Origin: a virus
DNA: 33,476 nucleotides
Direction: 5' to 3' (one strand)
Virus record (IMG/VR): IMGVR_UViG_3300048573_000141
Location: 1-33,476 of that record
The notes beneath the pieces are model-generated. The model was given only the letters and a program-made list of their open reading frames with translations. It did not search any database and was not told the DNA's origin. This document shows, one piece after another, positions 1-23,635 of the stretch (positions are counted from its first letter, which is position 1; every line of letters starts with the position of its first letter). The position numbers and the translations under genes were made by a program.

Positions 1-120
1 CTCTGGGGTTGATTTACCATAGGTCTGACGAAGGTAATTGTCTTGCTCAAAATGCCACGTAGCTAACGCTACGGCAGATTCTTTTGTATGAGTAGTGTTG
101 GTGAATGCTAGTGTTTGCAT
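1..120 (-). CDS. hypothetical protein, N-terminal 40 residues only
   Basis: An open frame runs from an ATG at 120 to the left edge with no stop, so the gene is cut by the window. It begins MQTLAFTNTTHTKESAVALA and continues with mixed polar residues. The ATG is preceded by a strong ribosome site (TAGGAGCAATT). No family is recognised. The first nine codons, the ribosome site and the 5' UTR are almost identical to the leader at 23168-23247, so this gene shares its translation start region with the early control region. It is the last gene of the leftward block in this window. Confidence 0.75.
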   Translation of the reverse strand, partial: MQTLAFTNTTHTKESAVALATWHFEQDNYLRQTYGKSTPE

Positions 121-156
121 AATTGCTCCTAAAGTTGATGATGTTGGTATTGTATA
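95..156 (-). repeat. leader repeat, left copy (direct repeat of 23184-23247)
   Basis: About 62 bp match the segment 23184-23247 in the same orientation, with two substitutions (121 and 152) and a two-base indel next to the ribosome site. It covers a -10-like element (TACAAT), an untranslated leader containing ACATCATCAACTTT, the ribosome site and nine codons. The copy at 23 kb has a clear -35 box (TTGAAT). Here no good -35 is seen, so this promoter may be weaker or need help. Confidence 0.9.
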
Positions 157-1600: not shown

Positions 1601-1798
1601 TCATTCAGTTTCATTACCCCAATCATCTACTTTTATACTAGGATCAGCAAACTCTATATCAAACACAACACGAGGCTTTACTCGAACAATCTTACCACAG
1701 CAATATATAATTGTATGGCACGATTTAAGACATGTTTCCATGTTTCTGACAGCATTGTCAGGAATTTCTAGTTTTCCGTTGCAGTTCGGGCACAGCAT
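1601..1798 (-). CDS. small zinc-ribbon-like protein (65 aa)
   Basis: The protein opens MLCPNCNGKLEIP, a CxxC knuckle, and has further cysteines (CLKSCH and CCGK) about 20 residues later, fitting a small zinc ribbon. The ATG at 1798 was chosen because AAAGGAGTTATC precedes it; an upstream frame from 1846 begins inside the terminator hairpin and lacks a ribosome site. It is the first gene after the nrdA terminator and would be read from the promoter at 1829-1857. Partner and function are unknown. Confidence 0.75.
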   Translation of the reverse strand: MLCPNCNGKLEIPDNAVRNMETCLKSCHTIIYCCGKIVRVKPRVVFDIEFADPSIKVDDWGNETE

Positions 1799-1828
1799 GA
1801 TAACTCCTTTGTTGTTTAAGATAAGCAG

Positions 1829-1857
1829 AGTATACACCAAAAACAAAACCCCTGCAA
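1829..1857 (-). promoter_or_regulatory. sigma70-type promoter inside the nrdA terminator
   Basis: On the minus strand TTGCAG (1857-1852), a 17-base spacer and TATACT (1834-1829) form a good -35/-10 pair. The -35 hexamer lies in the 3' arm of the terminator hairpin at 1846-1879. It would restart transcription for the small genes from 1798 leftward. Confidence 0.55.
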
Positions 1858-8475: not shown

Positions 8476-8503
8476 ATTATACATCAAGATTTCTTTAAAT
8501 CTT
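8476..8503 (-). promoter_or_regulatory. candidate promoter with small hairpin before 7673-8398
   Basis: A perfect TATAAT (8481-8476 on the minus strand) lies in the 103-base gap 8399-8501. No good -35 hexamer stands 16-18 bases upstream, so this is weaker than the promoters at 4984 and 23240. Just upstream a perfect 7-bp AT-rich inverted repeat (AAGATTT-N4-AAATCTT, 8486-8503) overlaps the stop of the preceding gene and could be an operator or a weak hairpin. The remaining leader of about 70 bases shows nothing else recognisable. Confidence 0.35.
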
Positions 8504-8867
8504 ATCCGTTCATTGCCTCGTTAAAATCAAAGCTAGCGTTTGCTCTTTTTATAGCAAATTGTTTATCGTTTGTAAGACAATACTTGTTCACATGAGCAGC
8601 CAAAGACCATTCGTAAAAATCGGCAACATACACCATGTCCACGAACCCTTGGTCTGTTTTCACCATATAGTTGTCACCTACTTTAATCAGCTTATATCCT
8701 TTAGGTAAACCGTCATTTTGTTTTTGTTGCTGTGTGCAAGGTTTTTGTTTTTCTTTGCTCCAGTAGCGAAGCAATACTAGGATTGGGTAGCACATTGCTA
8801 GGAAGCAACCCACCAACAAAAGAACTAAAGCAAGCCCGAAAAAGACTGTTATCGAAAAATTACCCAT
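8502..8867 (-). CDS. small membrane protein (121 aa)
   Basis: The N-terminus is a long hydrophobic stretch (about residues 5-33, including FFGLALVLLLVGCFLAM) that forms one or two membrane segments, followed by a positive region (RYWSKEKQKP) and a soluble C-terminal domain of about 80 residues. This predicts an inner-membrane anchor with the tail in the cytoplasm. The ATG at 8867 was chosen because AAGGAG lies seven bases before it; two ATGs further upstream would overlap that site or the terminator. It is the first gene after the terminator at 8896-8937. Function unknown. Confidence 0.7.
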   Translation of the reverse strand: MGNFSITVFFGLALVLLLVGCFLAMCYPILVLLRYWSKEKQKPCTQQQKQNDGLPKGYKLIKVGDNYMVKTDQGFVDMVYVADFYEWSLAAHVNKYCLTNDKQFAIKRANASFDFNEAMNG

Positions 8868-8895
8868 GAACATACTCCTTACTAGAACAAACAAC

Positions 8896-8937
8896 AAAAA
8901 AAAAAAAGAACCTAGAGGATTTCTCCAGTAGGTTCTT
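8896..8937 (-). terminator. strong Rho-independent terminator ending the replication block
   Basis: On the minus strand a 9-bp stem (8929-8937 with 8906-8914), a short internal loop and three more pairs are followed by a run of twelve T. It lies 20 bases after the stop of the metallophosphoesterase gene at 8958 and separates the replication block from the small genes to the left. Confidence 0.92.
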
Positions 8938-8957
8938 ATTGTATCACAGTTTCGTGC

Positions 8958-9905
8958 TTATTTATATTTTTTATTAAGATAACCAAGCGACACAGGCATT
9001 AGATCAAAAGCACCATCTTTTACTTCGTGAAGCATTAGCACACCCCTCCAGTGCTTGTTTCCTTGAGAACTCATGTAGTCTTCGTTATGCTCATAGAAAC
9101 TGCCACAAATCAGAGACGTTAACGGTTGACCATCTGCACGATACGCAGTAGCGATCTGCAATCCCTGTTGGTGTCCTGCAATACAACTCATGTGCTTTTT
9201 AGCTAGTTGTGCTGATGCTGTAGCAGCAGGTCTACCTGCCAGTCCTGTGGTGAAGTAATGCGAGAAAGCAATACCATCTACTACGATAACATCAAGGAAA
9301 GGCACTGTCTTCCAACCAAACTCTTCATAACCTAAATCTTCCAACGATAGAACTCCATCTAACTTCGGATCATCGTTTACTGCTCTGTTGATTCTGTGCT
9401 CGTGGTTACCGTATAGCATGATCATTTCAGGGTTGTACTCTGGATTGATGCAGTTATAGTTCCATAGGGGTTCTAGAAGACTAAGCATCGCTTCTCTAGC
9501 TGCTGCTACATCCAGTCTGTACCTACGACCTTCAAAAGTCTTCTTGCCTACGTCATACGAACTCAGACTAGGCATATCTGCGAAATCACCTAGACAGATA
9601 ATCTTATCAGGTTGTTTCTCCACGATGTACTGTCCAAGTTTGTTCAAGAAAGAAAAATCGTGTCCGTGTTTGGCTTGTACATCTGGTATCACCAGAATCT
9701 TACTACCAGAGCGTGTTGTGTTGACCAGAGGTTTTGTAGTTTTCTTTGATTTTTTCCAACTGGAGTAACCTTCGTATCCTGCGTTCGCTAGTGTGTAGTT
9801 CACACCAGACTTAGACAACCCTAGCTCTTTCGCAATCTTTCTACCAGATAACCCATAGTCACAAAGCTGTCGAATACGCTTTTTTAGTTCGTTTGTGTAT
9901 TGCAT
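8958..9905 (-). CDS. calcineurin-like metallophosphoesterase with N-terminal HTH
   Basis: Residues 5-42 look like a resolvase/homeodomain-type helix-turn-helix (IRQLCDYGLSGRKIAKELGL). Residues 70-310 form a two-metal phosphoesterase: DVQAKHGH (Asp75, His80/82), LGDFAD (Asp107), YGNHEHR (Asn167, His168), SHYF (His216) and AGHQQG (His245). The family hydrolyses phosphomono- or diesters; substrate here is unknown, but a DNA- or RNA-binding module points to a nucleic-acid substrate. The ribosome site (AAAGGAAAAA) fits the ATG at 9905. It is the last gene before a strong terminator. Confidence 0.88.
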   Translation of the reverse strand: MQYTNELKKRIRQLCDYGLSGRKIAKELGLSKSGVNYTLANAGYEGYSSWKKSKKTTKPLVNTTRSGSKILVIPDVQAKHGHDFSFLNKLGQYIVEKQPDKIICLGDFADMPSLSSYDVGKKTFEGRRYRLDVAAAREAMLSLLEPLWNYNCINPEYNPEMIMLYGNHEHRINRAVNDDPKLDGVLSLEDLGYEEFGWKTVPFLDVIVVDGIAFSHYFTTGLAGRPAATASAQLAKKHMSCIAGHQQGLQIATAYRADGQPLTSLICGSFYEHNEDYMSSQGNKHWRGVLMLHEVKDGAFDLMPVSLGYLNKKYK

Positions 9906-11362: not shown

Positions 11363-12333
11363 ATTTCTACTCCATATTTGTTGAATAAATCAAAACAATC
11401 AAGTTTATCATCACTGCTTCGCATCATTCTTGCGCATCTGTAATACAACCGTATCATTGTCTCCCAGTCTGCTTGTTGCTTATTACCAAACCAATCAGTG
11501 TACTCGAATTTCTCTGGGTAAAACTTCTTGAATTGCGATACTACTGCTTGCAGGACTTCGGTTTCTGTTTGACAATCTTTCAACAACTTATAAGCAGACT
11601 TAGCACCGAACTTTACACTACTAGCTTCATAGGCACAGTAAGTATCAACAGGATCGGAACAAACCCACTGGTAAGCTAGGAACTTCAACCCAAGACCTTT
11701 TACTGCATCTTTTTCTAAACGCAACTCCCCCAGTTCTGGTACTTTCTCGTATTCAAACTTATCGTCGTCGTAGAGCAAAGTAACACCGTCAAGTTGGTAC
11801 TGGTCTTTTTCATAGAAATACATCACAGCTTCTTTACCTGCGCGAACAGCGTTGTACGCAGCTATACTACAAGCATCATCTACCTCGTAACCAAAAGCTT
11901 TCTTTGCGCTGTACTTTTTCTGTAAGTACTCTTTTGCTTCTACTAAGTGAACAGGTCGAATACCTTTTCTATTGCCTTTATACTCAGACGGTAATGTTAG
12001 TTTTTTTCTGAAGTTGTCCTCTTCCCCTGCAAATATTACAACCTCGGATGGTTTTACTTCTTCAACAACACGGTTGATGTGGTTCTTGATAGTATTGAGA
12101 ACATAAGCAAGAGGTTCAGGTTTCTGTACATCAGAAACTTCGTAGTCTTCAGTTATAGTTTTAGATTTTTCAAGCATGTACTGCTTGAATGCAGTCCTGT
12201 GTTTGAATGACTTCTCAATACCAGTAGGTGAGTGTCTTACTAGCACAGATCGCTCTTCACCAGCGGCACTACACCTAAAAGCAATTGAATCACCATCTAG
12301 TATCAGTACACGGTCAGTCACGACTTTGTTCAA
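11359..12333 (-). CDS. 5'-3' exonuclease, T7 gp6/FEN-like
   Basis: The protein begins VLILDGDSIAFR (Asp13, Asp15 as metal ligands), has SEYKGNRKG as the basic helical-clamp part, FGYEVDDACSIAA as a further acidic site and a late SDPVDTYCAYEA plus AKSAYKLLKD like the DNA-binding region of T7 exonuclease relatives. It removes RNA primers or degrades DNA from 5' ends. The longest frame starts with TTG at 12333; GTG at 12321 is an equal candidate, since neither has a clear ribosome site and both overlap the upstream gene. At 324 residues it is close to T7 gp6. Confidence 0.85.
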   Translation of the reverse strand: MNKVVTDRVLILDGDSIAFRCSAAGEERSVLVRHSPTGIEKSFKHRTAFKQYMLEKSKTITEDYEVSDVQKPEPLAYVLNTIKNHINRVVEEVKPSEVVIFAGEEDNFRKKLTLPSEYKGNRKGIRPVHLVEAKEYLQKKYSAKKAFGYEVDDACSIAAYNAVRAGKEAVMYFYEKDQYQLDGVTLLYDDDKFEYEKVPELGELRLEKDAVKGLGLKFLAYQWVCSDPVDTYCAYEASSVKFGAKSAYKLLKDCQTETEVLQAVVSQFKKFYPEKFEYTDWFGNKQQADWETMIRLYYRCARMMRSSDDKLDCFDLFNKYGVEI

Positions 12334-12535
12334 TCAGTAGTTGTGTAGTTGCTGCTTTTTCTTCTAGAGCATCTACCTTGTCTGCAACAACAGCTTTTGC
12401 TACAGCAGATACGATTGCAGAATCACCACCAGCTTCTTTGATTGCTGTTTTGATTGCTTTTTCTTGTTCTGTAAACTCTTGCATATTCGTGTAAAGCAAC
12501 ACGAGTTCTGCGATAAAATTCTTCATGTTTTGCAT
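12314..12535 (-). CDS. hypothetical alpha-helical protein (73 aa)
   Basis: No family is recognised. Nearly the whole chain is predicted helical and alanine/glutamate-rich (EFTEQEKAIKTAIKEAGG, AKAVVADKVDALEEKAA), so it may form a coiled coil. It follows the SPFH lipoprotein gene by one base and overlaps the exonuclease start by about 20 bases. A second ATG three codons in is also possible. It could be a small partner of either neighbour; this is inference from position. Confidence 0.65.
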   Translation of the reverse strand: MQNMKNFIAELVLLYTNMQEFTEQEKAIKTAIKEAGGDSAIVSAVAKAVVADKVDALEEKAATTQLLIEQSRD

Positions 12536-12536
12536 T

Positions 12537-13331
12537 TTATTTTCCCATCATCAACGAGTTAAAGTTAGAAGGTACAACAATAGTTTGAACTTTTCCGTTC
12601 TTGATACCTTCGCTAATGTTTAAAGCAGCCTGAGCCTGCATGAACGCGATACTACTGCCTGAGTTGTTAGACAAAGCAGCCATTCGACGAGATTCTGCCT
12701 CTGCGGTCTTTACTTCGATTTCTTTTTGTTTCAACTCATTCTTCGACCGCACGAGTTCGTTTGAGCTTGCCACCACAATATCTGCTGGTGTTATGTTCCT
12801 CACAAGTACTTGACTGATTGTAACCGATGCAGCCAACCCTTCTGCTAACAAATTACGGGTGATCTCATCTTTCACAAAACCTTCGATCAATACACGATTG
12901 TCTGCCATATCTAGTGCCTCGTATTGCCGTGCTGCTTTGTATAGAGCGTTTCTGGTATTTTGAACAATATAGTTATACATTAGATAGGTGTCACCTTTAT
13001 CGGTAACATGGAAACTTCGGTTCTTTGTCGAATAAAGCTCTGATACTTGTTGTGGATTGATGTTGTAGACAACAAGTAAATCTAAATCCTTCATCGTACT
13101 GTTGTCTTTTGCAACAGGTGTCATGTTATCAATAGACACACTCACATCTTTCACTGGAAACGTGAGAACGTCTCCTATTAGTGTTTGGTAAATGTTACCT
13201 GCTGATAACTCTCCTTGCTGAACTTGTTTGAAGAAGTCCACGCGAACACCAACTTCACCAGTTTCGATACGAGTGCATCCTGAGAAAAATAGACTAAGTG
13301 CAAGTAGCAACGCTGTTAAAAACTGTTTCAT
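12537..13331 (-). CDS. SPFH/prohibitin-like domain lipoprotein
   Basis: The start was set to ATG 13331 because AAAAGGAATAAA precedes it; an upstream TTG would add ten residues. The N-terminus is a lipoprotein signal: KQ, a hydrophobic run and FSGC, with Cys19 as the lipidated residue and Thr after it, which in enterobacteria favours the outer membrane. The rest is an SPFH (band 7) domain: GEVGVRVDFF, TMKDLDLLVVYNINP, IVQNTRNALYKAAR, DEITRNLLAEGL, then a long charged helix (KNELKQKEIEVKTAEAESRR) and IVVPSNFNSLM at the end, as in prohibitin/HflC relatives. These form ring-like membrane scaffolds. Such a gene inside a phage replication block is unusual. Confidence 0.85.
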   Translation of the reverse strand: MKQFLTALLLALSLFFSGCTRIETGEVGVRVDFFKQVQQGELSAGNIYQTLIGDVLTFPVKDVSVSIDNMTPVAKDNSTMKDLDLLVVYNINPQQVSELYSTKNRSFHVTDKGDTYLMYNYIVQNTRNALYKAARQYEALDMADNRVLIEGFVKDEITRNLLAEGLAASVTISQVLVRNITPADIVVASSNELVRSKNELKQKEIEVKTAEAESRRMAALSNNSGSSIAFMQAQAALNISEGIKNGKVQTIVVPSNFNSLMMGK

Positions 13332-13357
13332 TTTATTCCTTTTCTTCGGGTTTTGTT

Positions 13358-13693
13358 TCAAATAACTACTTCTGAGTGTTTGTATTCAATAGAATCAACA
13401 TAATAATAGGTTTTGTCATGTCTGTTATATTCTGGTGTTGCGACACACAAGAAGTTTTTACCGTTTACGGAATACTCGCAAAGATACTCGTCCAGACCAC
13501 GGTTATACGAGCCTTTGCAATCGTTGTTTGCAAGGTCTTCTAGCAAACCTTCTACTCTGTGTTCGGCTTCTTTCTGATCAGAATACGTGTTGTATTCCCT
13601 CGACAATTTGAGTGCTCGTTTGGTTTCTTGCAAAGATTCAACATCTTTCTTTAGTTTTGCAATTTCGTTGTTGATTTCGGCTAGTGTTTTCAT
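13358..13693 (-). CDS. hypothetical protein with N-terminal coiled coil (111 aa)
   Basis: Residues 1-35 form a clear coiled coil (EINNEIAKLKKDVESLQETK). The C-terminal half is beta-like and tyrosine-rich (YNRGLDEYLCEYSVNGKN, HDKTYYYVDSIEYKH). No family is recognised. The ATG overlaps the stop of 13690-13866 as ATGA, and the gene is followed by the SPFH lipoprotein gene, so the three may act together. Confidence 0.7.
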   Translation of the reverse strand: MKTLAEINNEIAKLKKDVESLQETKRALKLSREYNTYSDQKEAEHRVEGLLEDLANNDCKGSYNRGLDEYLCEYSVNGKNFLCVATPEYNRHDKTYYYVDSIEYKHSEVVI

Positions 13694-13866
13694 GATTTTC
13701 GATACGTCCTTGTGTTAGTCATTAAACTGCTTGTTGCTACTGCAACTAACCACAGCAACCCTCCCCAGCACAAAAGCAAAGGGAGGATTACCACGGCTAG
13801 TGTAAACAACAAAGCAAGAAGAGGAATTAAACACAGTAAAATTCCAAATGCTTTGATTAGTTTCAT
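13690..13866 (-). CDS. small hydrophobic membrane protein (58 aa)
   Basis: The frame starts at ATG 13866, nine bases after the SSB stop, and overlaps the next start as ATGA. It encodes MKLIKAFGILLCLIPLLALL, then a second hydrophobic run with VVILPLLLCWGGLLWLV, and a basic tail (TNTRTYRKS), so two membrane helices are expected. The ribosome site is weak (AACCAACAACT). The near-perfect packing between two genes supports it as real. It sits beside an SPFH lipoprotein, whose relatives often pair with small membrane proteins. Confidence 0.65.
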   Translation of the reverse strand: MKLIKAFGILLCLIPLLALLFTLAVVILPLLLCWGGLLWLVAVATSSLMTNTRTYRKS

Positions 13867-13875
13867 AGTTGTTGG

Positions 13876-14511
13876 TTAGAACGGAGCATCGTCGTCCATA
13901 TCAGCAAAACCTGTGTCGGGTTTCTTAGGAGCGGGTTTCTTTGGTTCAACAACAGTTTTCTTAGCTTCTGGTTTTACAGAAGGTTTAGCTGTGTTCTTCA
14001 CAGCAGGTGAAACCAAGCCAAACTCACTACCCAACACTGTATTAGTTTCCACATACTCTACCAGATCGGTCACTAGAATGTTTTTCAAGCGTGCTACTGC
14101 ACCAAGTTTTGCATCATAGTGGTCAACTGAAATCTCACCAATTGAACCATTGCCGACTAAAACAGAGCTTGTTACATCCTTGTATTCACCGTCTTCAGAC
14201 ATAATGACCTTAGGTTGGTAAATATCTGGTACAGGGTTACCATTGGCAAGAAGAGTATTCTTGCGTAACGTGACGATGAACTGCTTTCGCTCATTGGGGA
14301 ACGGTGCAGGTATTTTATAGGTAGCCTCAAAGTCCTCGGTTTTGATTCGTTTAGCTGGTTGCTTGTTATACAACTCTTCCCACAAGTCTGCTGTGTCTTC
14401 GTCGACAACAATACTCGCTTTCCACTCAAGCCCTTTTTCTTGTTCGTAGCATTTTACTGGTTTTTGTAGTGATACATACAACAAAGTACCCTTTAGTTTA
14501 TCAATAGCCAT
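13876..14511 (-). CDS. single-stranded DNA-binding protein (T7 gp2.5-like architecture)
   Basis: The 211-residue protein has an N-terminal OB-like domain (KLKGTLLYVSLQKPVKCYEQ, later FIVTLRKNTLLANG, GEISVDHYDAKLGAVARLKNILV), a flexible lysine/proline linker (PSVKPEAKKTVVEPKKP) and an acidic tail ending DMDDDDAPF-like with a final Phe. That tail is the hallmark of phage and bacterial SSBs that dock polymerase and helicase. The start has a ribosome site AAAAAGGATTGAACA. It lies just downstream of the tRNA genes and upstream of the exonuclease. Confidence 0.85.
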   Translation of the reverse strand: MAIDKLKGTLLYVSLQKPVKCYEQEKGLEWKASIVVDEDTADLWEELYNKQPAKRIKTEDFEATYKIPAPFPNERKQFIVTLRKNTLLANGNPVPDIYQPKVIMSEDGEYKDVTSSVLVGNGSIGEISVDHYDAKLGAVARLKNILVTDLVEYVETNTVLGSEFGLVSPAVKNTAKPSVKPEAKKTVVEPKKPAPKKPDTGFADMDDDAPF

Positions 14512-14581
14512 TGTTCAATCCTTTTTGAATAAACGCAATACGCGCGTTTTATGTTTTCCGTTAAAAGCAACGGACAGCTTT

Positions 14582-14658
14582 TGGTAGGATGCACAGGACT
14601 TGAACCTGCACCGTATGAATTATGAGTTCACCGTACTAACCAATTATACTAACATCCC
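14582..14658 (-). tRNA. tRNA with CAT anticodon (Met or Ile-CAT)
   Basis: The minus strand folds into a 77-nt cloverleaf: acceptor GGGATGT/GCATCCT, D-arm GTAT/GTAC, anticodon stem GTGAA/TTCAT around loop CTCATAA, T-arm GCAGG-TTCAAGT-CCTGT, discriminator A and an encoded CCA. The anticodon CAT would read AUG, or AUA if the host converts C34 to lysidine; sequence alone does not settle which. Confidence 0.93.
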
Positions 14659-14662
14659 GTGT

Positions 14663-14739
14663 TGGTACATCCAGAGGGGATCGAACCCCCGACCCACAGC
14701 TTAGAAGGCTGTTGCTCTATCCGACTGAGCTATGGACAT
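14663..14739 (-). tRNA. tRNA-Arg (TCT anticodon)
   Basis: The minus strand folds into a 77-nt cloverleaf: acceptor ATGTCCA/TGGATGT (two wobble pairs), D-arm GCTC/GAGC, anticodon stem ACAGC/GCTGT around CTTCTAA, T-loop TTCGATC, discriminator A and encoded CCA. It reads AGA/AGG arginine codons, which are rare in many enteric hosts. It lies four bases from the second tRNA, so both are probably cut from one transcript. Confidence 0.95.
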
Positions 14740-14753
14740 GTTTTTGTTTGTTT

Positions 14754-15098
14754 TTAAGCTCTGAAATACTCTGTGACGGTCACTGATTTAGGTGTTACGA
14801 AATACCAATCATCGTATTCACTTCCTCTGTACGATTGGTAACTTCCATCGAACTTCACAAACAGTTCTTCATTACCGTTACAGAACGAGTAGATTCTATA
14901 GAAGTCCTCACCTTCGCCTTCGCCACCATGTTCTTCGACTTGTGTGTAAGAAAAAGAGCAAGCCTGTAGTTCATCTAGGAACTCATTCGTGAGATCATCG
15001 TTGTAATCGAATCGTTCAAGCTCTTGACTAAAAAATTCATTCAATACGCTTTTGTCAGCGTTGTTAAGTAATTCGAACAATTGTTCTCTAAATATCAC
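14754..15098 (-). CDS. conserved phage hypothetical protein, acidic (114 aa)
   Basis: The centre reads GGEGEGEDFYRIYSF...LFVKFDGSYQSYRGSEYDDWYF, a layout common in small uncharacterised phage proteins. The start is GTG at 15098, with AAAGGAACTAT before it; an ATG overlapping this site is followed at once by TGA and cannot serve. The protein is strongly acidic and soluble. It lies between the nucleotidyltransferase gene and the tRNA genes. Function unknown. Confidence 0.75.
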   Translation of the reverse strand: MIFREQLFELLNNADKSVLNEFFSQELERFDYNDDLTNEFLDELQACSFSYTQVEEHGGEGEGEDFYRIYSFCNGNEELFVKFDGSYQSYRGSEYDDWYFVTPKSVTVTEYFRA

Positions 15099-15113
15099 AT
15101 AGTTCCTTTCATT

Positions 15114-15917
15114 TCATACTCTACAAACAGGTGATGTTGTTATTTCAAATTTATATCTCTCGAAGTCTGCTGCGTTATACTCAGCGACAACCAAAGGGTA
15201 GTTATCAATAGCAAAATCCCTAAACCAACCACTGCAAAGCGTGGTACATACTTTCTCTAGCGCCTTCATGTAAGCAATTCTACTCATAATCACCCATCCC
15301 CGAGGTACTAGAAATCTTTCAATTGCAATTACTTTAGTTTCCTCAGCAACGCATTTTATCTTATCCTCGAAAGCAAGATTATACCACAAATCTTTGTCGC
15401 ACCATGCTTTTGTTGAATCTTTTTGTAGTTTCGTATATAATGGTTTGTCATAATAAGCAACTACCTCATGTAGCCAATCATGGTTGTATGTCTTGACTAC
15501 AGCATCATCGAAGAAATCACTTACGCTTTTATTAAGATTGGGTTTCCATTGCTTGAACGCTTCGTAAGACAAGGCTAATCTTTGTTGGTAAAGCTGGTTA
15601 TCTACAAAATATCTTGACAAGCCTTTCCGATGGTAATGCAATATGTGTTTATCGAAACTTAAAGCTCTCCAGAGGTGACTTCGTTTAATAATAGCTAACC
15701 CTTCCATGCTTACAACAGACAGAGCTACACCAGAAGGTGACGCAACTGTATGATTGGTGCAATACGTCTCACAAACAACCTTGTTGTTTAGAAACAAAGG
15801 ATTGTGCTGCTCAGTACCTTCTAGTTCTGTATCGGAAACAACATCCCAATCTGCGTCGGGTTTGTTTTCTTCCTGCAACCAGTAGTTCATTGCACGCGAA
15901 CCAATAAGATAGTTCAA
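15114..15917 (-). CDS. nucleotidyltransferase-fold protein
   Basis: The N-terminus IGSRAMNYWL (Gly6-Ser7) followed by DADWDVVSD (Asp pair near residues 22-26) is the GSxA...DxD signature of the polymerase-beta-type nucleotidyltransferase fold. The C-terminal part is helical, with HDWLHEVVAYYDKPLY and CVAEETKVIAIERFLVP, as in a phage family of unknown role. The start is TTG at 15917 with AAAGGAAAAGAC upstream; the next ATG would delete the GS motif, so TTG is required. The substrate could be a tRNA, protein or small molecule. It sits two genes upstream of the tRNAs. Confidence 0.78.
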   Translation of the reverse strand: MNYLIGSRAMNYWLQEENKPDADWDVVSDTELEGTEQHNPLFLNNKVVCETYCTNHTVASPSGVALSVVSMEGLAIIKRSHLWRALSFDKHILHYHRKGLSRYFVDNQLYQQRLALSYEAFKQWKPNLNKSVSDFFDDAVVKTYNHDWLHEVVAYYDKPLYTKLQKDSTKAWCDKDLWYNLAFEDKIKCVAEETKVIAIERFLVPRGWVIMSRIAYMKALEKVCTTLCSGWFRDFAIDNYPLVVAEYNAADFERYKFEITTSPVCRV

Positions 15918-15931
15918 GTCTTTTCCTTTGC

Positions 15932-16243
15932 TTAGTTGGGTAGCTTGAGAACAGCGTAAAACAATTGCTCTACTGTAGGTAGGTTGTATTTTCCATTGCT
16001 CGGATGCCTGCTTTGTGTATAGAAAATCAAATCTTTTTTAGGGATTTTTAAAGGAGTTGTTATTGTTGCTAGCACAACTCCTTTGCTTTTGCAATACTGA
16101 TCAGAAGGAGAACATGTACTGTATCGTACCAGTACATCGCGCGAATCAGGTGCAAGTGATAAAACCCATGTAGTACCAAACACACCTTGCTTGCGCTGCT
16201 GCGCATCTGTGGGACAATGAATTACAATAGTAGAAAATAACAT
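15932..16243 (-). CDS. hypothetical protein (103 aa)
   Basis: No family is recognised. The chain is beta-rich at first (FSTIVIHCPTDAQQ, TTWVLSLAPDSRDVLVRY), then basic, and ends in a helix (TVEQLFYAVLKLPN). It contains a Cys pair (STCSPSDQYC) of no known type. The ribosome site (GAAAGGAATAAT) is good. It lies between polymerase and nucleotidyltransferase genes. Confidence 0.7.
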   Translation of the reverse strand: MLFSTIVIHCPTDAQQRKQGVFGTTWVLSLAPDSRDVLVRYSTCSPSDQYCKSKGVVLATITTPLKIPKKDLIFYTQSRHPSNGKYNLPTVEQLFYAVLKLPN

Positions 16244-16276
16244 ATTATTCCTTTCAAATTTTGTTTAGATGCTGAA

Positions 16277-18457
16277 TTATATCACAAGTTTTGCGGCTTC
16301 AGCAATATAGTATTCAAAATTTATATCACCGTCAAAATTCACCATATCATTGCAGGTTTTTACTTTCCAACCAACTTCAATACCTAGTCTACGTTCACCG
16401 TCTTCTTCCTTGCCTTCCAGCGCAGGCATTATTTTAATTAGACTACCACCATGATTACTTGGATAATAACGACAAATGTTCTGTTGTTTTTCAACCCTAC
16501 CGTCTTCAAACTCCAACACAAGTTTTGAACTACGAGGTACTTTTGTTCGGAGCATGAAATCAAACACATTCCCTTTTTTGAACCAATCAACAATAAAATC
16601 AGAAAGCTCTGTGTTATATAGCATCTTTGCTTCTGCTGCCATTGGAACAACCAGCGCTGATTGGTTTTTGTGCCACTCAAGGTCTTTGTATTGATACGCA
16701 CCTTTTCGTTTAATCTTTCCGTTCGTGTATACACTCAAATAATTATTCACATCTCTTATGTGCATTTTAGAATAGTCAGCACGTTCCATTTGCAGCTTGG
16801 TAAGTTTTTCCCACTGTCTAACCACCAACATCGCTTTTTCATCGTCTTCACGTTTGATACAGAAAGTCAAACCATCTGTGTTAATTGCAACCATTTTATA
16901 ACTAATACCAGACTGCGTGAACATGTCAACCAATTGACACAACAACAGTTGACCGTTTACACAAATAGACATTGTATATGCTGAATCATAGAACACACTA
17001 TACTGATTGTTAGAATCACCGTAGACGCTATTCAAGGCAAGTTTCAACATTGCGTTTTCTGGAGAACTTTTGGGATAAGATTTTCGTTGTTCAAACACAT
17101 CTTGATAAATCTCACAGAACTGAGCACCCAAGTGTTCCGGGTAAATCTTGTTTGCAATTGCAAGATTCGGATAATAACTAGCAACATCAAGATCAACAAC
17201 ACCCCAAGAATTGTTTTCTATTACTACTTTGTTTGAGAGACTACCGTGGATACCGCCAACACCGTAATCGTATTTAAAGCCGTTTACAACTACGTTTAAA
17301 GTTTCTGCAATGTTGTAGCAACCCCAGTAAGACTTCTTCGGTACACGAACCTTCTTTTGCTTTTTTGTTAAATCGGGACACCCTTCCGAATCTAAAGGAT
17401 GCCGCATGACATGATTCCCGTTTGCATCAAAAAGATATTCCATTGCCTTCAGTTCTTCTTCTTCAACCCAACCCAATGGGTGTTCTTTTTTAAACTGCAA
17501 CAACTCTTGTTCAGTTGGTTTTTGTTTGAACTTCTGTTTCTTCTTTTGCAATTCAGCATACTTCGCTACATCACCAAGTTCAGCTTCATCTATATCAGTG
17601 AAAACTCCTTTGGTTTCACTGATTTTCTGCTGTGCAAACCAGTTTTTAATTGCGATGAAAGCAGGTTCTTTGAAGTCATAATAATTAAACAGACATGTTC
17701 CAAGGTCAATTTTATATCGCTTGGTTTGGTTCATTACACGTTGTCCGTTCTTGTGTGTATACAATTGCACACCGAACTCTTCCAATCGCATTTGAAAGTA
17801 ATCTTTACCTATTTTACCGTCGTTGTGATTGAGGAAGTTTCTGTTGTATTTTACAGTAAGCGCTTTTCTAAAATCAATTGCGGATTTTGATTCGTTAAAA
17901 AATCGCAAAGTAGCTTGTACATCGTGGTTGTTGTAAGCAAGAATTTTATCAATATCTGCATCAAACAATACAGCGTCAACTGCAAAAGGCAAGTCCTCGA
18001 TGTTCTGCATACGCATGTTGAACTCAAGCATCTTCAGACTGGTTGACTTAGCTTTGTTATCAAAGTGGTGTATTTTATACAAATCAACTTGTCTGATTTT
18101 TTCATCTGATGACTTAATTGTAGAACCAAACTGATTGTTGGTTTTGAACGAATCAATCTGCTTTTGTGCAAGTTCATAAACATAGTTTGCCAACGCTTTA
18201 CCAGACTTGGGTAGTTTGTCTCGTTTGTTAAGTATCTGGTGCAGAATAGGATAATCAAAACCTGTGTTATTAAACCCAACCATCTCACAACCGTTGTCCA
18301 TCAAATAATCTAAACAAGTCAAAATGCTATCAATTTCATTTTTACGAGAAGAAACCTCCCAACAGCGTTGTAGCTTTCCATCGGAACGGACGATTGAAAA
18401 ACTAAACAATTCCTTGAAAGTTTCTAAATCATACACAAAAGTTTTGCTATTATCCAA
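16277..18457 (-). CDS. family B DNA polymerase with 3'-5' exonuclease domain
   Basis: This is the replicative polymerase (726 aa). Exonuclease motifs are YDLET (Asp10, Glu12), NNTGFD (Asp68) and YNNHD (Asp179). A YGVGG element (near 399-403) precedes the palm, as in YxGG of family B enzymes. Palm motifs are DVASYYP (Asp424, motif A), KLALNSVYG (Lys472, motif B) and NTDG (Asp528, motif C), where the usual first Asp of DTD is Asn526. A basic insert lies at about 304-375. The start is TTG at 18457 after AAGGAGAAATT. It is followed by the small gene at 15932 and preceded by primase-helicase. Confidence 0.93.
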   Translation of the reverse strand: MDNSKTFVYDLETFKELFSFSIVRSDGKLQRCWEVSSRKNEIDSILTCLDYLMDNGCEMVGFNNTGFDYPILHQILNKRDKLPKSGKALANYVYELAQKQIDSFKTNNQFGSTIKSSDEKIRQVDLYKIHHFDNKAKSTSLKMLEFNMRMQNIEDLPFAVDAVLFDADIDKILAYNNHDVQATLRFFNESKSAIDFRKALTVKYNRNFLNHNDGKIGKDYFQMRLEEFGVQLYTHKNGQRVMNQTKRYKIDLGTCLFNYYDFKEPAFIAIKNWFAQQKISETKGVFTDIDEAELGDVAKYAELQKKKQKFKQKPTEQELLQFKKEHPLGWVEEEELKAMEYLFDANGNHVMRHPLDSEGCPDLTKKQKKVRVPKKSYWGCYNIAETLNVVVNGFKYDYGVGGIHGSLSNKVVIENNSWGVVDLDVASYYPNLAIANKIYPEHLGAQFCEIYQDVFEQRKSYPKSSPENAMLKLALNSVYGDSNNQYSVFYDSAYTMSICVNGQLLLCQLVDMFTQSGISYKMVAINTDGLTFCIKREDDEKAMLVVRQWEKLTKLQMERADYSKMHIRDVNNYLSVYTNGKIKRKGAYQYKDLEWHKNQSALVVPMAAEAKMLYNTELSDFIVDWFKKGNVFDFMLRTKVPRSSKLVLEFEDGRVEKQQNICRYYPSNHGGSLIKIMPALEGKEEDGERRLGIEVGWKVKTCNDMVNFDGDINFEYYIAEAAKLVI

Positions 18458-18483
18458 AATTTCTCCTTAAAAACAACATTATA

Positions 18484-20187
18484 TCATTGATTGTTTAACC
18501 AATCGTCTAAATCATGAAGTGTGTGAGTTTCGTTGTCGTAATAAAAAGCACCTGCACTACCAGTGATTCCGCAGACCCTGTTCTTTGGTACGGAAACAGT
18601 AGTAGTGTTCCGAACAATAGGGTCTTCCGCTAGCTTGTCCCGCTTCAGTATAATGTTGGCTGCTGCTGATTTAATGATGGTACTAGAACCCATGATGTCC
18701 ATTTCACCGCTGTTGTCGCTTTTACGCATGTGGTTTATAAAAACAAAACTAACACCGTGTGATTTTATGAACCCCTTAGCCCACTTCATGAACAGTGATT
18801 GTTCTTCGTTCGATAGACCATCAAGAAGGTCTTGCAGTGGATCAAGCACAATTACCTTACAACCACAGGAAACAACCAGTTCTTCAATTGTATTTTCTAT
18901 TTCTTCAATACTACCATCACGATTATCCAACAAATAAAACCTGTCAGAACCATCGGTGTTTTTCATCAATTCATTCGATTTTTGCCTAATGAAATCGCTA
19001 CCAAGATATTCAAGTTTTTCAGTAAGATTGGGCATCAGTGCTAGTTTGCGAGAAACGTGTCTTGATAACAAGACTTCACCATATTGACCAGCATCCAATT
19101 CCATTGAAACAATACCAATTTTGTGTGGACTGTGAAAAATCCAATAGTAAATCATTTCGTTGACATAAGTGGTTTTACCAACACCAGTGTCTGCTGCAAG
19201 GTTAAAAATATAACCAAGTGGCATTCCACCGATAAACATTTCGTTTAGTTTCTTCATAAACGGTGGAAACGGTATTTTTGCAACCTCGTTTTGCTGAACA
19301 ATCCTGTCATATAAACCACTCGAAGGTAACACCCCAACAGGGACAAATTCTTTCGCGTTGTAGAAGTCGGAAACAAATTCTTTTTGTTTTCCATTTGTCA
19401 AGTATTCGTTCGGGTCTTTATATCGAAGCGTAGCTACTCTAACTTTACCTTTTGGTAGATACTTAATCAAATCCTCAGAAGCCTCTTTACCTGCTTTATC
19501 GTTGTCATACATCAGAACAATGTTATCAAATGAATCAAGGAATTTGTATTGTGCGGCTATTTGCTTTTTAGAGTTAGCTCCAGTAGTTGGACTAACAGCA
19601 GCCGTTTCGAAATCACTCTTTTTAGAGTTGTTGTAATCCAAGAGCATCTGATAGGCCGACAACGAATCCACTTCCCCTTCACAGATAATTACATACTTGC
19701 CCCCACGGTTGAATTTAAACTGCATAAATAGCTCACAATCAGCACCAGTTCTACCCTTGGAGCGAAAATCCTTTGGTACTTCTCGAATTTTATAACCACT
19801 AAGTTGACCTTCTTGTGTCACTGGATAATACTGTTCTGTAACTTCACCTTCAATCAAGGTGTGACGAACACCAAACATCTTATAAACTTCATCCCTTATA
19901 CCACGAAACTCGTTGGCTTGAATTGTTGTTCGTGTTTTTATTTCGTTGTTCTCTTCGTCAGAAATCGCTGGTTTCGTGCTTGGTTTTATTTCCATATCTT
20001 CTTTGGTTCTTTCAAAAACTTTTTCAGGTTTAATTTTGTGTTTTGTTTGCAGTTCTGTTTTATATTCTTCGCTTATGGATTTATAACCACAATGACTGAA
20101 ACAAAAGTAACTACCGTCTTCGTAAATAGCAAGATTGTCCTTACTTCCACAGTTCGGACAACTCGAATGTTTAATGAAATTTGCCAA
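18484..20187 (-). CDS. primase-helicase, T7 gp4-like
   Basis: One protein primes and unwinds at the fork. The N-terminus has a zinc-binding motif (CPNC at 10-13, CFSHC at 29-33), then a TOPRIM primase core (CEGEVDSLS near 169-177; MYDNDKAG with Asp228 and Asp230) and a RecA-like helicase with Walker A (ADTGVGKTT near 332-340), Walker B (VIVLDPLQD, Asp449) and FVFINHMRK (His486). The start was set to TTG at 20187 because AGAAAGGATA precedes it and the zinc motif follows directly; GTG at 20226 has only a badly placed AGAGG. Length 567 residues equals T7 gp4 size. Confidence 0.93.
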   Translation of the reverse strand: MANFIKHSSCPNCGSKDNLAIYEDGSYFCFSHCGYKSISEEYKTELQTKHKIKPEKVFERTKEDMEIKPSTKPAISDEENNEIKTRTTIQANEFRGIRDEVYKMFGVRHTLIEGEVTEQYYPVTQEGQLSGYKIREVPKDFRSKGRTGADCELFMQFKFNRGGKYVIICEGEVDSLSAYQMLLDYNNSKKSDFETAAVSPTTGANSKKQIAAQYKFLDSFDNIVLMYDNDKAGKEASEDLIKYLPKGKVRVATLRYKDPNEYLTNGKQKEFVSDFYNAKEFVPVGVLPSSGLYDRIVQQNEVAKIPFPPFMKKLNEMFIGGMPLGYIFNLAADTGVGKTTYVNEMIYYWIFHSPHKIGIVSMELDAGQYGEVLLSRHVSRKLALMPNLTEKLEYLGSDFIRQKSNELMKNTDGSDRFYLLDNRDGSIEEIENTIEELVVSCGCKVIVLDPLQDLLDGLSNEEQSLFMKWAKGFIKSHGVSFVFINHMRKSDNSGEMDIMGSSTIIKSAAANIILKRDKLAEDPIVRNTTTVSVPKNRVCGITGSAGAFYYDNETHTLHDLDDWLNNQ

Positions 20188-22748: not shown

Positions 22749-22943
22749 TTACTCCAAAAAGTTAGAAAAAAGGATTGTAGCACAAATAAGCACCGTAAAC
22801 AAGACAGCAACCAAAAAAGGTGATATTCCTTTTAGTTCGGGTTTTTCAAGCCAACTAGCGTATTCTGCATCACGGAAAGCTGTTATAGCACTACGGTAAG
22901 CCACAGCAGGTTTGTAGAACGGGTCATAAGTTACTTTTTTCAT
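22749..22943 (-). CDS. small C-terminally anchored membrane protein (64 aa)
   Basis: A soluble, aromatic N-terminal half (DPFYKPAVAYRSAITAFRD) is followed by one hydrophobic helix at the end (FLVAVLFTVLICATILF), so the protein is probably tail-anchored in the inner membrane. The ribosome site is weak (AAAAGATTACAA). No family is recognised. It lies in the first minus-strand operon read from the control region at 23240-23268. Confidence 0.68.
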   Translation of the reverse strand: MKKVTYDPFYKPAVAYRSAITAFRDAEYASWLEKPELKGISPFLVAVLFTVLICATILFSNFLE

Positions 22944-22953
22944 TTGTAATCTT

Positions 22954-23157
22954 TTATTTTACAATCATTAGAACCTGTTTTGACTCTATGGTGTAAAAAT
23001 CGTTCCTTGATATATCATGTATATATAAGCCTAATGTGTAACCTAGTTCTGTAAACCCCTTGATTACACCAAAACTCAACTGTCCTATCGTGTTTTCAAA
23101 AACTATTTTATCACCTATGTTGTATTCACTGAATATCTTGAGTTTTTTACAAAACAT
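22954..23157 (-). CDS. hypothetical protein, first full gene of the leftward operon (67 aa)
   Basis: The protein starts MFCKKLKIFSEYNIGDKIVF and is mostly beta, resembling a small SH3-like barrel (DKIVFENTIGQLSFGVIKGF, LGLYIHD); this is only a shape guess. The ribosome site AAAGGAAAAACA overlaps the stop codon of the 13-codon leader at 23168-23209, so it is likely coupled to leader translation. Confidence 0.68.
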   Translation of the reverse strand: MFCKKLKIFSEYNIGDKIVFENTIGQLSFGVIKGFTELGYTLGLYIHDISRNDFYTIESKQVLMIVK

Positions 23158-23167
23158 TGTTTTTCCT

Positions 23168-23209
23168 TTATTTTGTGTAGGTTGTGTTGGTGAATGCTAG
23201 TGTTTGCAT
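23168..23209 (-). CDS. 13-codon leader peptide MQTLAFTNTTYTK
   Basis: ATG 23209 is preceded by CTAGGAGCAATC, a strong ribosome site, and the frame ends at TAA 23168. The first nine or ten codons equal those of the gene at 1-120. The stop overlaps the ribosome site of 22954-23157 (TAAAGGAAAAACAATG), so ribosomes ending the leader would stand at the next start. Whether the peptide matters or only its translation is unknown. Confidence 0.5.
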   Translation of the reverse strand: MQTLAFTNTTYTK

Positions 23210-23247
23210 GATTGCTCCTAGAAAGTTGATGATGTTGGTATTATATA
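23184..23247 (-). repeat. leader repeat, right copy (direct repeat of 95-156)
   Basis: This copy matches 95-156 over about 62 positions with two substitutions and a two-base insertion beside the ribosome site. It runs from the -10 box of the promoter at 23240-23268 through the leader and nine codons. Beyond the repeat the sequences diverge: the downstream frame here stops after 13 codons. Confidence 0.9.
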
Positions 23248-23268
23248 TCAGGTTTTGAGAACATTCAA
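23240..23268 (-). promoter_or_regulatory. sigma70-type promoter of the leftward early block
   Basis: On the minus strand TTGAAT (23268-23263), 17 bases, then a perfect TATAAT (23245-23240) followed by ACC. It would drive the leader peptide and the long run of minus-strand genes down to about 8.9 kb. The layout matches the nrdBA promoter at 4984-5012. Confidence 0.75.
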
Positions 23269-23300: not shown

Positions 23301-23332
23301 TTATGAAAACAAAATCTATATTCATAGAAACA

Positions 23333-23341
23333 TGCTACAAT
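23333..23341 (+). promoter_or_regulatory. candidate extended -10 promoter for the rightward island
   Basis: TGC followed by TACAAT gives an extended -10 element about 30 bases before the ATG at 23372. There is no convincing -35 box, which extended -10 promoters can lack. No better plus-strand promoter is seen in 23210-23371. Confidence 0.4.
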
Positions 23342-23371
23342 CTAGTCACCGACAACTTTATAGGAGAGAAC

Positions 23372-23635
23372 ATGGCTGACTACTTAACCGCCGCTACCAC
23401 AAGAGAATATGCTCAAAACACAAAAGCCCTTGAGGGAGCGTACCTTAAAAGAGAAACAATTGAATTACTCAATCAAGTTACTGAAGCAGCTAAAAGAGGG
23501 GGAGATTCTTTTGTTTGGAAAGGTAAGTTATGCGGTAACGAAGTAATTCATGCACGACTTAGAGAGTTAGGCTACAAAATATTTTACGAACCCGCAGAAT
23601 ACAATCGTGAGTCCTATCTACAAGTTTCGTGGTAA
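23372..23635 (+). CDS. hypothetical protein (87 aa)
   Basis: The start at 23372 follows TATAGGAGAGAAC, an excellent ribosome site; a longer frame from 23303 has none. The protein begins MADYLTAATTREYAQNTKAL, is basic and helical, and ends with a beta-like segment (LGYKIFYEPAEYN). The LRELGYKIFYE part recalls small proteins that pack a helix on a strand, but no family is recognised. First gene of the plus-strand island. Confidence 0.75.
   Translation: MADYLTAATTREYAQNTKALEGAYLKRETIELLNQVTEAAKRGGDSFVWKGKLCGNEVIHARLRELGYKIFYEPAEYNRESYLQVSW

Follow-up and report, generated by a model that had tools for sequence, protein, structure and literature searches.

A segment that opens a gene near the left end of the window (the whole stretch of DNA analysed here, 33,476 bases) was found duplicated at the head of a leftward run into replication genes, where the copied reading frame ends after 13 codons. 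Minus-strand positions 79-156 and 23168-23247 aligned over 80 columns at 88.75% identity with one 2-base gap (self-BLASTN, E 1.8e-22), and self-BLASTN returned this pair as the sole long repeat in the window (repeat family D2). The match is far above chance, with a score of 112 compared to a best self-match of 50 in 60 simulated windows that were matched for composition and dinucleotide make-up. The near-complete match between 95-156 and 23184-23247 described in the initial annotation was therefore confirmed, and extends to the wider limits given above. The interpretation that we consider probable, although well short of certain, is that recombination duplicated a start segment, that the copy now provides the replication operon with a promoter and leader, and that the 13-codon stub was carried along as a passenger, perhaps coupled in translation to the gene that follows.

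The window, an IMG/VR virus record, covers 33 kb of a phage genome with replication genes resembling those of Limnohabitans phage DC31, and over half of the genome probably lies outside it. The genes present include primase/helicase, DNA polymerase, ribonucleotide reductase, dCMP deaminase, RNA ligase, thymidylate synthase, endolysin and a lambda-J-like tail gene, and the primase has its closest match in DC31 (63% identity). Relatives of the window primase were retrieved from 79 environmental loci, and a primase search of genome contigs yielded no confirmed relative. One near-identical contig (L077) spans window positions 12092-18958 and reaches neither copy of the repeat, while another (L083), found via a gene near the left copy, ends near window position 450, approximately 300 bases short of that copy; none of the close relatives retrieved covered either copy. 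Between the small left genes and those for ribonucleotide reductase lies a terminator-like hairpin (1845-1880). At 8898-8965 (minus strand), upstream of a TTG open reading frame at 8502-8897, a -10-like box TGTGATACAAT adjoins a hairpin and long T-tract AAGAACCTACTGGAGAAATCCTCTAGGTTCTTTTTTTTTT, a region that was read as a terminator with a possible overlapping promoter.

Features of the two copies and of the leaders related to them were as follows:

1-120, minus strand: left gene, first 40 codons (MQTLAFTNTTHTKESAVALATWHFEQDNYLRQTYGKSTPE), truncated by the window end (translation).
79-156, minus strand: left copy of the repeat, from the -10 box to codon 13/14 (self-BLASTN).
126-130, minus strand: left ribosome-binding site AGGAG (sequence).
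149-154, minus strand: left -10 box TACAAT (sequence; absent from the promoter-scan listing).
1796-1834, minus strand: fourth leader, TATACT...AACAACAAAGGAGTTATCATG, just past the terminator at 1845-1880 (promoter scan, pattern).
22954-23157, minus strand: next gene, 67 amino acids, no family in PHROGs or Pfam (gene-start listing, sequence).
23168-23247, minus strand: right copy of the repeat, from the -10 box to the stop (self-BLASTN).
23168-23209, minus strand: 13-codon stub open reading frame MQTLAFTNTTYTK, with stop TAA at 23170-23168 (translation).
23215-23219, minus strand: right ribosome-binding site AGGAG (sequence).
23240-23268, minus strand: predicted right promoter TTGAAT-17-TATAAT, 10/12 (consensus match only).
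23336-23374, plus strand: third, diverged leader, TACAAT...CAACTTTATAGGAG...ATG at 23372, at a divergent gene start (pattern, gene-start listing).

On the minus strand the left copy reads TATACAATACCAACATCATCAACTT--TAGGAGCAATTATGCAAACACTAGCATTCACCAACACTACTCATACAAAAGAA and the right copy TATATAATACCAACATCATCAACTTTCTAGGAGCAATCATGCAAACACTAGCATTCACCAACACAACCTACACAAAATAA. Both share without change a 17-base UTR core, the AGGAG that lies 5 bases upstream of the ATG, CAAT and the first 26 coding bases; mismatches occur at approximately 9 of the 80 columns and the longest identical run is 26 bases. Beyond the 26 identical coding bases 4 of 13 differ and the frames then part, so that the match fades past codon 9. 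The repeat reaches from the -10 box to codon 13, where GAA on the left stands opposite TAA on the right; the left frame runs on as GAATCTGCC..., and the right one terminates. Of the four coding differences, three fall at third codon positions, a bias that would be compatible with selection on the peptide but could equally be due to chance (p ~0.11 by hand).

No match between the copies was found upstream of the -10 box, in line with the initial description of a -35 that was not conserved; that description needs correction in one respect, as the right copy alone has a good -35. There, the TATAAT at 23245-23240 is preceded across a 17-base spacer by TTGAAT, which comes from the right copy's own flank. 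At the left copy no more than 2 of 6 -35 positions matched at 17-18 spacing (by eye), and the promoter scan listed no promoter. The initial annotation had also stated that the left copy opens a normal gene, and its frame does continue; only 40 codons are visible, however, and to call the gene normal goes beyond them. These 40 residues had no relative in phages (tblastn), in 29 related records or in Pfam.

The right copy heads the run into the replication genes, and this run is bounded by the divergent gene. As initially reported, the right frame stops after 13 codons at the next gene's ribosome-binding site: the TAA abuts the AGGA of an AAGGA that serves the gene starting at 23157, 10 bases past the stub stop. 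A scan for minus-strand terminators found none at 22900-23210. No relatives of the genes adjoining the stub were found in IMG/VR, and exact and degenerate searches of IMG/VR for the leader or stub peptide returned nothing, although very near records may be missing from the search set. A search for the element's DNA in named phages gave chance-level matches only.

The two copies follow a plan that is used more widely, consisting of a -10 box, 4-14 bases, (T/A)CAAC, AGGA and ATG, which occurs at four sites in the window, 154 (-), 1834 (-), 23245 (-) and 23336 (+), with the (T/A)CAAC motif having been picked after inspection of the same data. All four leaders stand at the heads of presumed transcription units. 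The plus-strand leader bears on the start of the divergent gene, which very likely lies at 23372 (MADYLTAATTREY...), with a -10/AGGAG leader in front of it, rather than at 23303 (+), a mechanical open reading frame start without a ribosome-binding site. With 5-11 bases allowed between the -10 box and (T/A)CAAC, ten relatives (whole or nearly whole genomes, with G010 and G020 taken to 80 kb) had 34 sites with the plan, against about 2 expected from simulated sequence, and the window had its four against 0.0. Reuse of a genome's own promoter-leaders at several of its gene starts was seen in DC31 (W01), G010, G022, G005 and L072, for example as GTATAATCAAGGCTTCAACACTAGGAG and GTATAATTGAGGCTTCAACACTAGGAG in DC31, with comparable pairs in G010, G022 and G005. 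A profile built from 13 leaders of relatives gave no useful score for either of the window's copies; as a pattern of use the leader plan is therefore firm, but it does not prove common descent, and part of the resemblance could be convergence on good start signals.

A scan of IMG/VR for ATCATCAACTT...AGGAG...ATG returned 16 stretches. In three of these (L134, L137 and L139) ATCATCAACTT lies 9-10 bases past a TATAAT, as in TATAAT...ATCATCAACTTCAAGGAGCAATCATG, a leader almost identical to the window's, and before a small protein unlike that of the window; in L126 it precedes a protein similar to that of the other three and the TATAAT is farther upstream. Several other stretches lay within genes or in the gaps between them and had no such box. 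The arrangement in L134, L137 and L139 (and L126) reads TTGACC...TATAAT...ATCATCAACTT..AGGAG before the small protein M(L/S)Y(T/S)FAGTS(V/I)LKG..., of which the L137 copy had no PHROG match; these proteins are possibly a family of early genes.

Comparable start-associated elements are known from other phages. In T4-type phages, promoter-early stem-loop (PeSL) cassettes combine a promoter with a stem-loop and are reused between genes by recombination; the reuse of promoters is shared with the window, whereas the stem-loop is without counterpart in the window leaders, as the RNA fold of both leader transcripts was no better than that of shuffled sequence (z -0.30 and +0.75). Among the DC31-like phages (Limnohabitans phage DC31, PQ492658, and IMG/VR relatives), a -10 box, short CA-rich UTR with TCAAC, AGGA(G) and ATG likewise occur at several genes per genome, but these leaders stop at the ribosome-binding site or start codon, in addition to the failure of their profile to find the window copies. 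Promoters are not mentioned in the paper that describes the DC31 genome.

Citrobacter phage Mordin (Ounavirinae, KT363872) carries a published start-associated repeat of 20-30 bases with a ribosome-binding site before many non-structural genes (PMC4611695). It is the closest published parallel, and its placement directly ahead of start codons resembles that of the window element. In the Mordin sequence from 8.7 to 15.6 kb, however, the repeat at most of 17 gene starts ends at the ATG, the following codons differ and no stub open reading frame occurs at the starts read, whereas the window repeat spans the -10 box to 26-39 coding bases. Cluster K mycobacteriophages possess Start-Associated Sequences (SAS), a 13-bp GGGATAGGAGCCC present 11-19 times and usually 3-7 bp ahead of the start codon, which contain AGGAG and for which a role in translation initiation was proposed (PMC3203893). 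These too are gene-start repeats with AGGAG, but differ in their remaining sequence and have no described tie to a -10 box. Two near-identical and two diverged copies of the window element were counted in 33 kb of what is only a genome fragment. As the consensus sequences differ (GGGATAGGAGCCC in cluster K and CCAACAATCCTAAACTGGAGAATCTA in Mordin versus CATCAACTT(TC)TAGGAGCAATYATG in the window), the window element can be said to work like the SAS repeats, not to be a member of them. Within Mordin (L142, KT363872; 8700-15600), CCTAAACTGGAGA or a close form was observed at most of the 17 starts, in comparison to the 8 reported by its authors (PMC4611695), and several starts had a longer shared block, AAGCCCCAGATAAAGAGCTTTACCAA, upstream.

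Leader reuse in the relatives and the repeat published for Mordin together indicate that the -10, UTR and ribosome-binding site portion of the duplication is ordinary. What is unusual is the extension of the copied segment into codons and, at one of the two sites, its ending in a stub whose stop touches the next ribosome-binding site. Across 272 -10/leader/start sites in 11 genomes, open reading frames shorter than 30 codons were present at 36, and the right copy was the sole case in which one of 5-29 codons abuts a gene with its own ribosome-binding site; the stub is thus no recurrent device in the relatives examined. No other duplication with a comparable codon stretch behind a -10 box and ribosome-binding site was found in 92 sequences of this phage group (1.9 Mb, a set in which loci and larger contigs overlap in part). 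Other promoter-leader duplications in this set end at or just past the start codon, and the remaining coding repeats are of other kinds.

On the interpretation that we favour, the shared block would comprise a -10 box of the sigma-70 type, a 5' UTR that is short and unstructured, a strong ribosome-binding site and the left gene's first codons. Recombination would have placed a duplicate of this block in front of the leftward replication genes, the source being either the left gene or a third copy that is not visible here. Host RNA polymerase would start the operon mRNA at the right copy using the local -35, and the first 9-13 codons would have been carried along as a passenger that became the 13-codon stub. 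The stub is probably translated because its ribosome-binding site is strong, and ribosomes finishing it could pass on to the next gene through translational coupling of the ordinary kind, which is possible because the stop abuts the next ribosome-binding site. Counting against this account are the left copy's want of a good -35, the failure of the relatives' leader profile to find the window copies, the choice of the TCAAC motif from the data in which it was then counted, and the third-position bias, which leaves room for selection on the peptide. A recent duplication that left a stub, one of two possibilities raised initially, fits the evidence well.

A different history would be duplication of the entire left gene, followed by deletion of all but the start of the second copy, which would survive as the stub. 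The frames match to codon 13 and the 3'-ward decay (0/26, 4/13, then different) resembles a decaying edge, yet the next gene begins 10 bases past the stop with a ribosome-binding site of its own, and tblastn of the 40 visible codons of the left gene found a match at the right locus limited to the 13 codons, which makes such a deletion seem unlikely to us. Misjoining of a metagenomic contig through the repeat is scarcely credible: the left copy does lie 78 bases from the contig end and the near-identical L083 also breaks nearby, but the copies differ from each other and each has separate sensible flanks, and a longest identical run of 26 bases is short for a false join.

Two further readings would give the stub a function. 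As a working leader peptide, the 13-codon open reading frame would tune the replication operon through coupling or as a nascent-peptide or starvation sensor, for which its strong, well-spaced AGGAG, the stop touching the next ribosome-binding site, the 26 identical coding bases and the concentration of differences at third positions would be suitable. We nevertheless regard this as improbable, given a single instance among the 272 sites, the lack of a stable structure or of a terminator immediately after the stub, codons that do not form a series of like ones as in classical attenuators, and an adequate ribosome-binding site at the next gene. The proposal of a translated RNA element or undescribed control device was unsupported for similar reasons, namely the fold scores, the uniqueness of the stub and the fact that reuse of start leaders is already known. 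Quite improbable as well is a mobile gene-start cassette (promoter, leader, ribosome-binding site and first codons) that places operons under early, high-translation control, with the stub as a natural bicistronic leader insulating or feeding the next ribosome-binding site. In the account given in PMC5995908, bicistronic-design leaders of synthetic biology place a short translated leader open reading frame ahead of the target gene; those are engineered, whereas the window offers a single natural instance known from sequence alone.

Should the stub belong to a moving cassette and be translated, it would show that start segments can travel in nature along with codons, and would hint at how phages rewire operons by short recombination. 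Otherwise the duplication still illustrates cleanly how freshwater phages reuse promoter-leaders. The significance is modest either way, resting on one sequence-based instance.

Repeats of other kinds were observed in the related genomes. A palindrome TAATATAGGTTATAATATAGATT... of 70-84 bases with 81-86% self-complementarity is present in G013 (40018-40100), G016 (74262-74343) and G017 (34794-34863), and is perhaps a replication origin or operator. In G005, tandem 49-base repeats GTTCAAATAAGCTAACGCTTATATAAGCTTGCACTTATATAATACGCAC occupy both contig ends (1-126 and 79771-79995), which indicates that this record is probably circular and was broken within the array.
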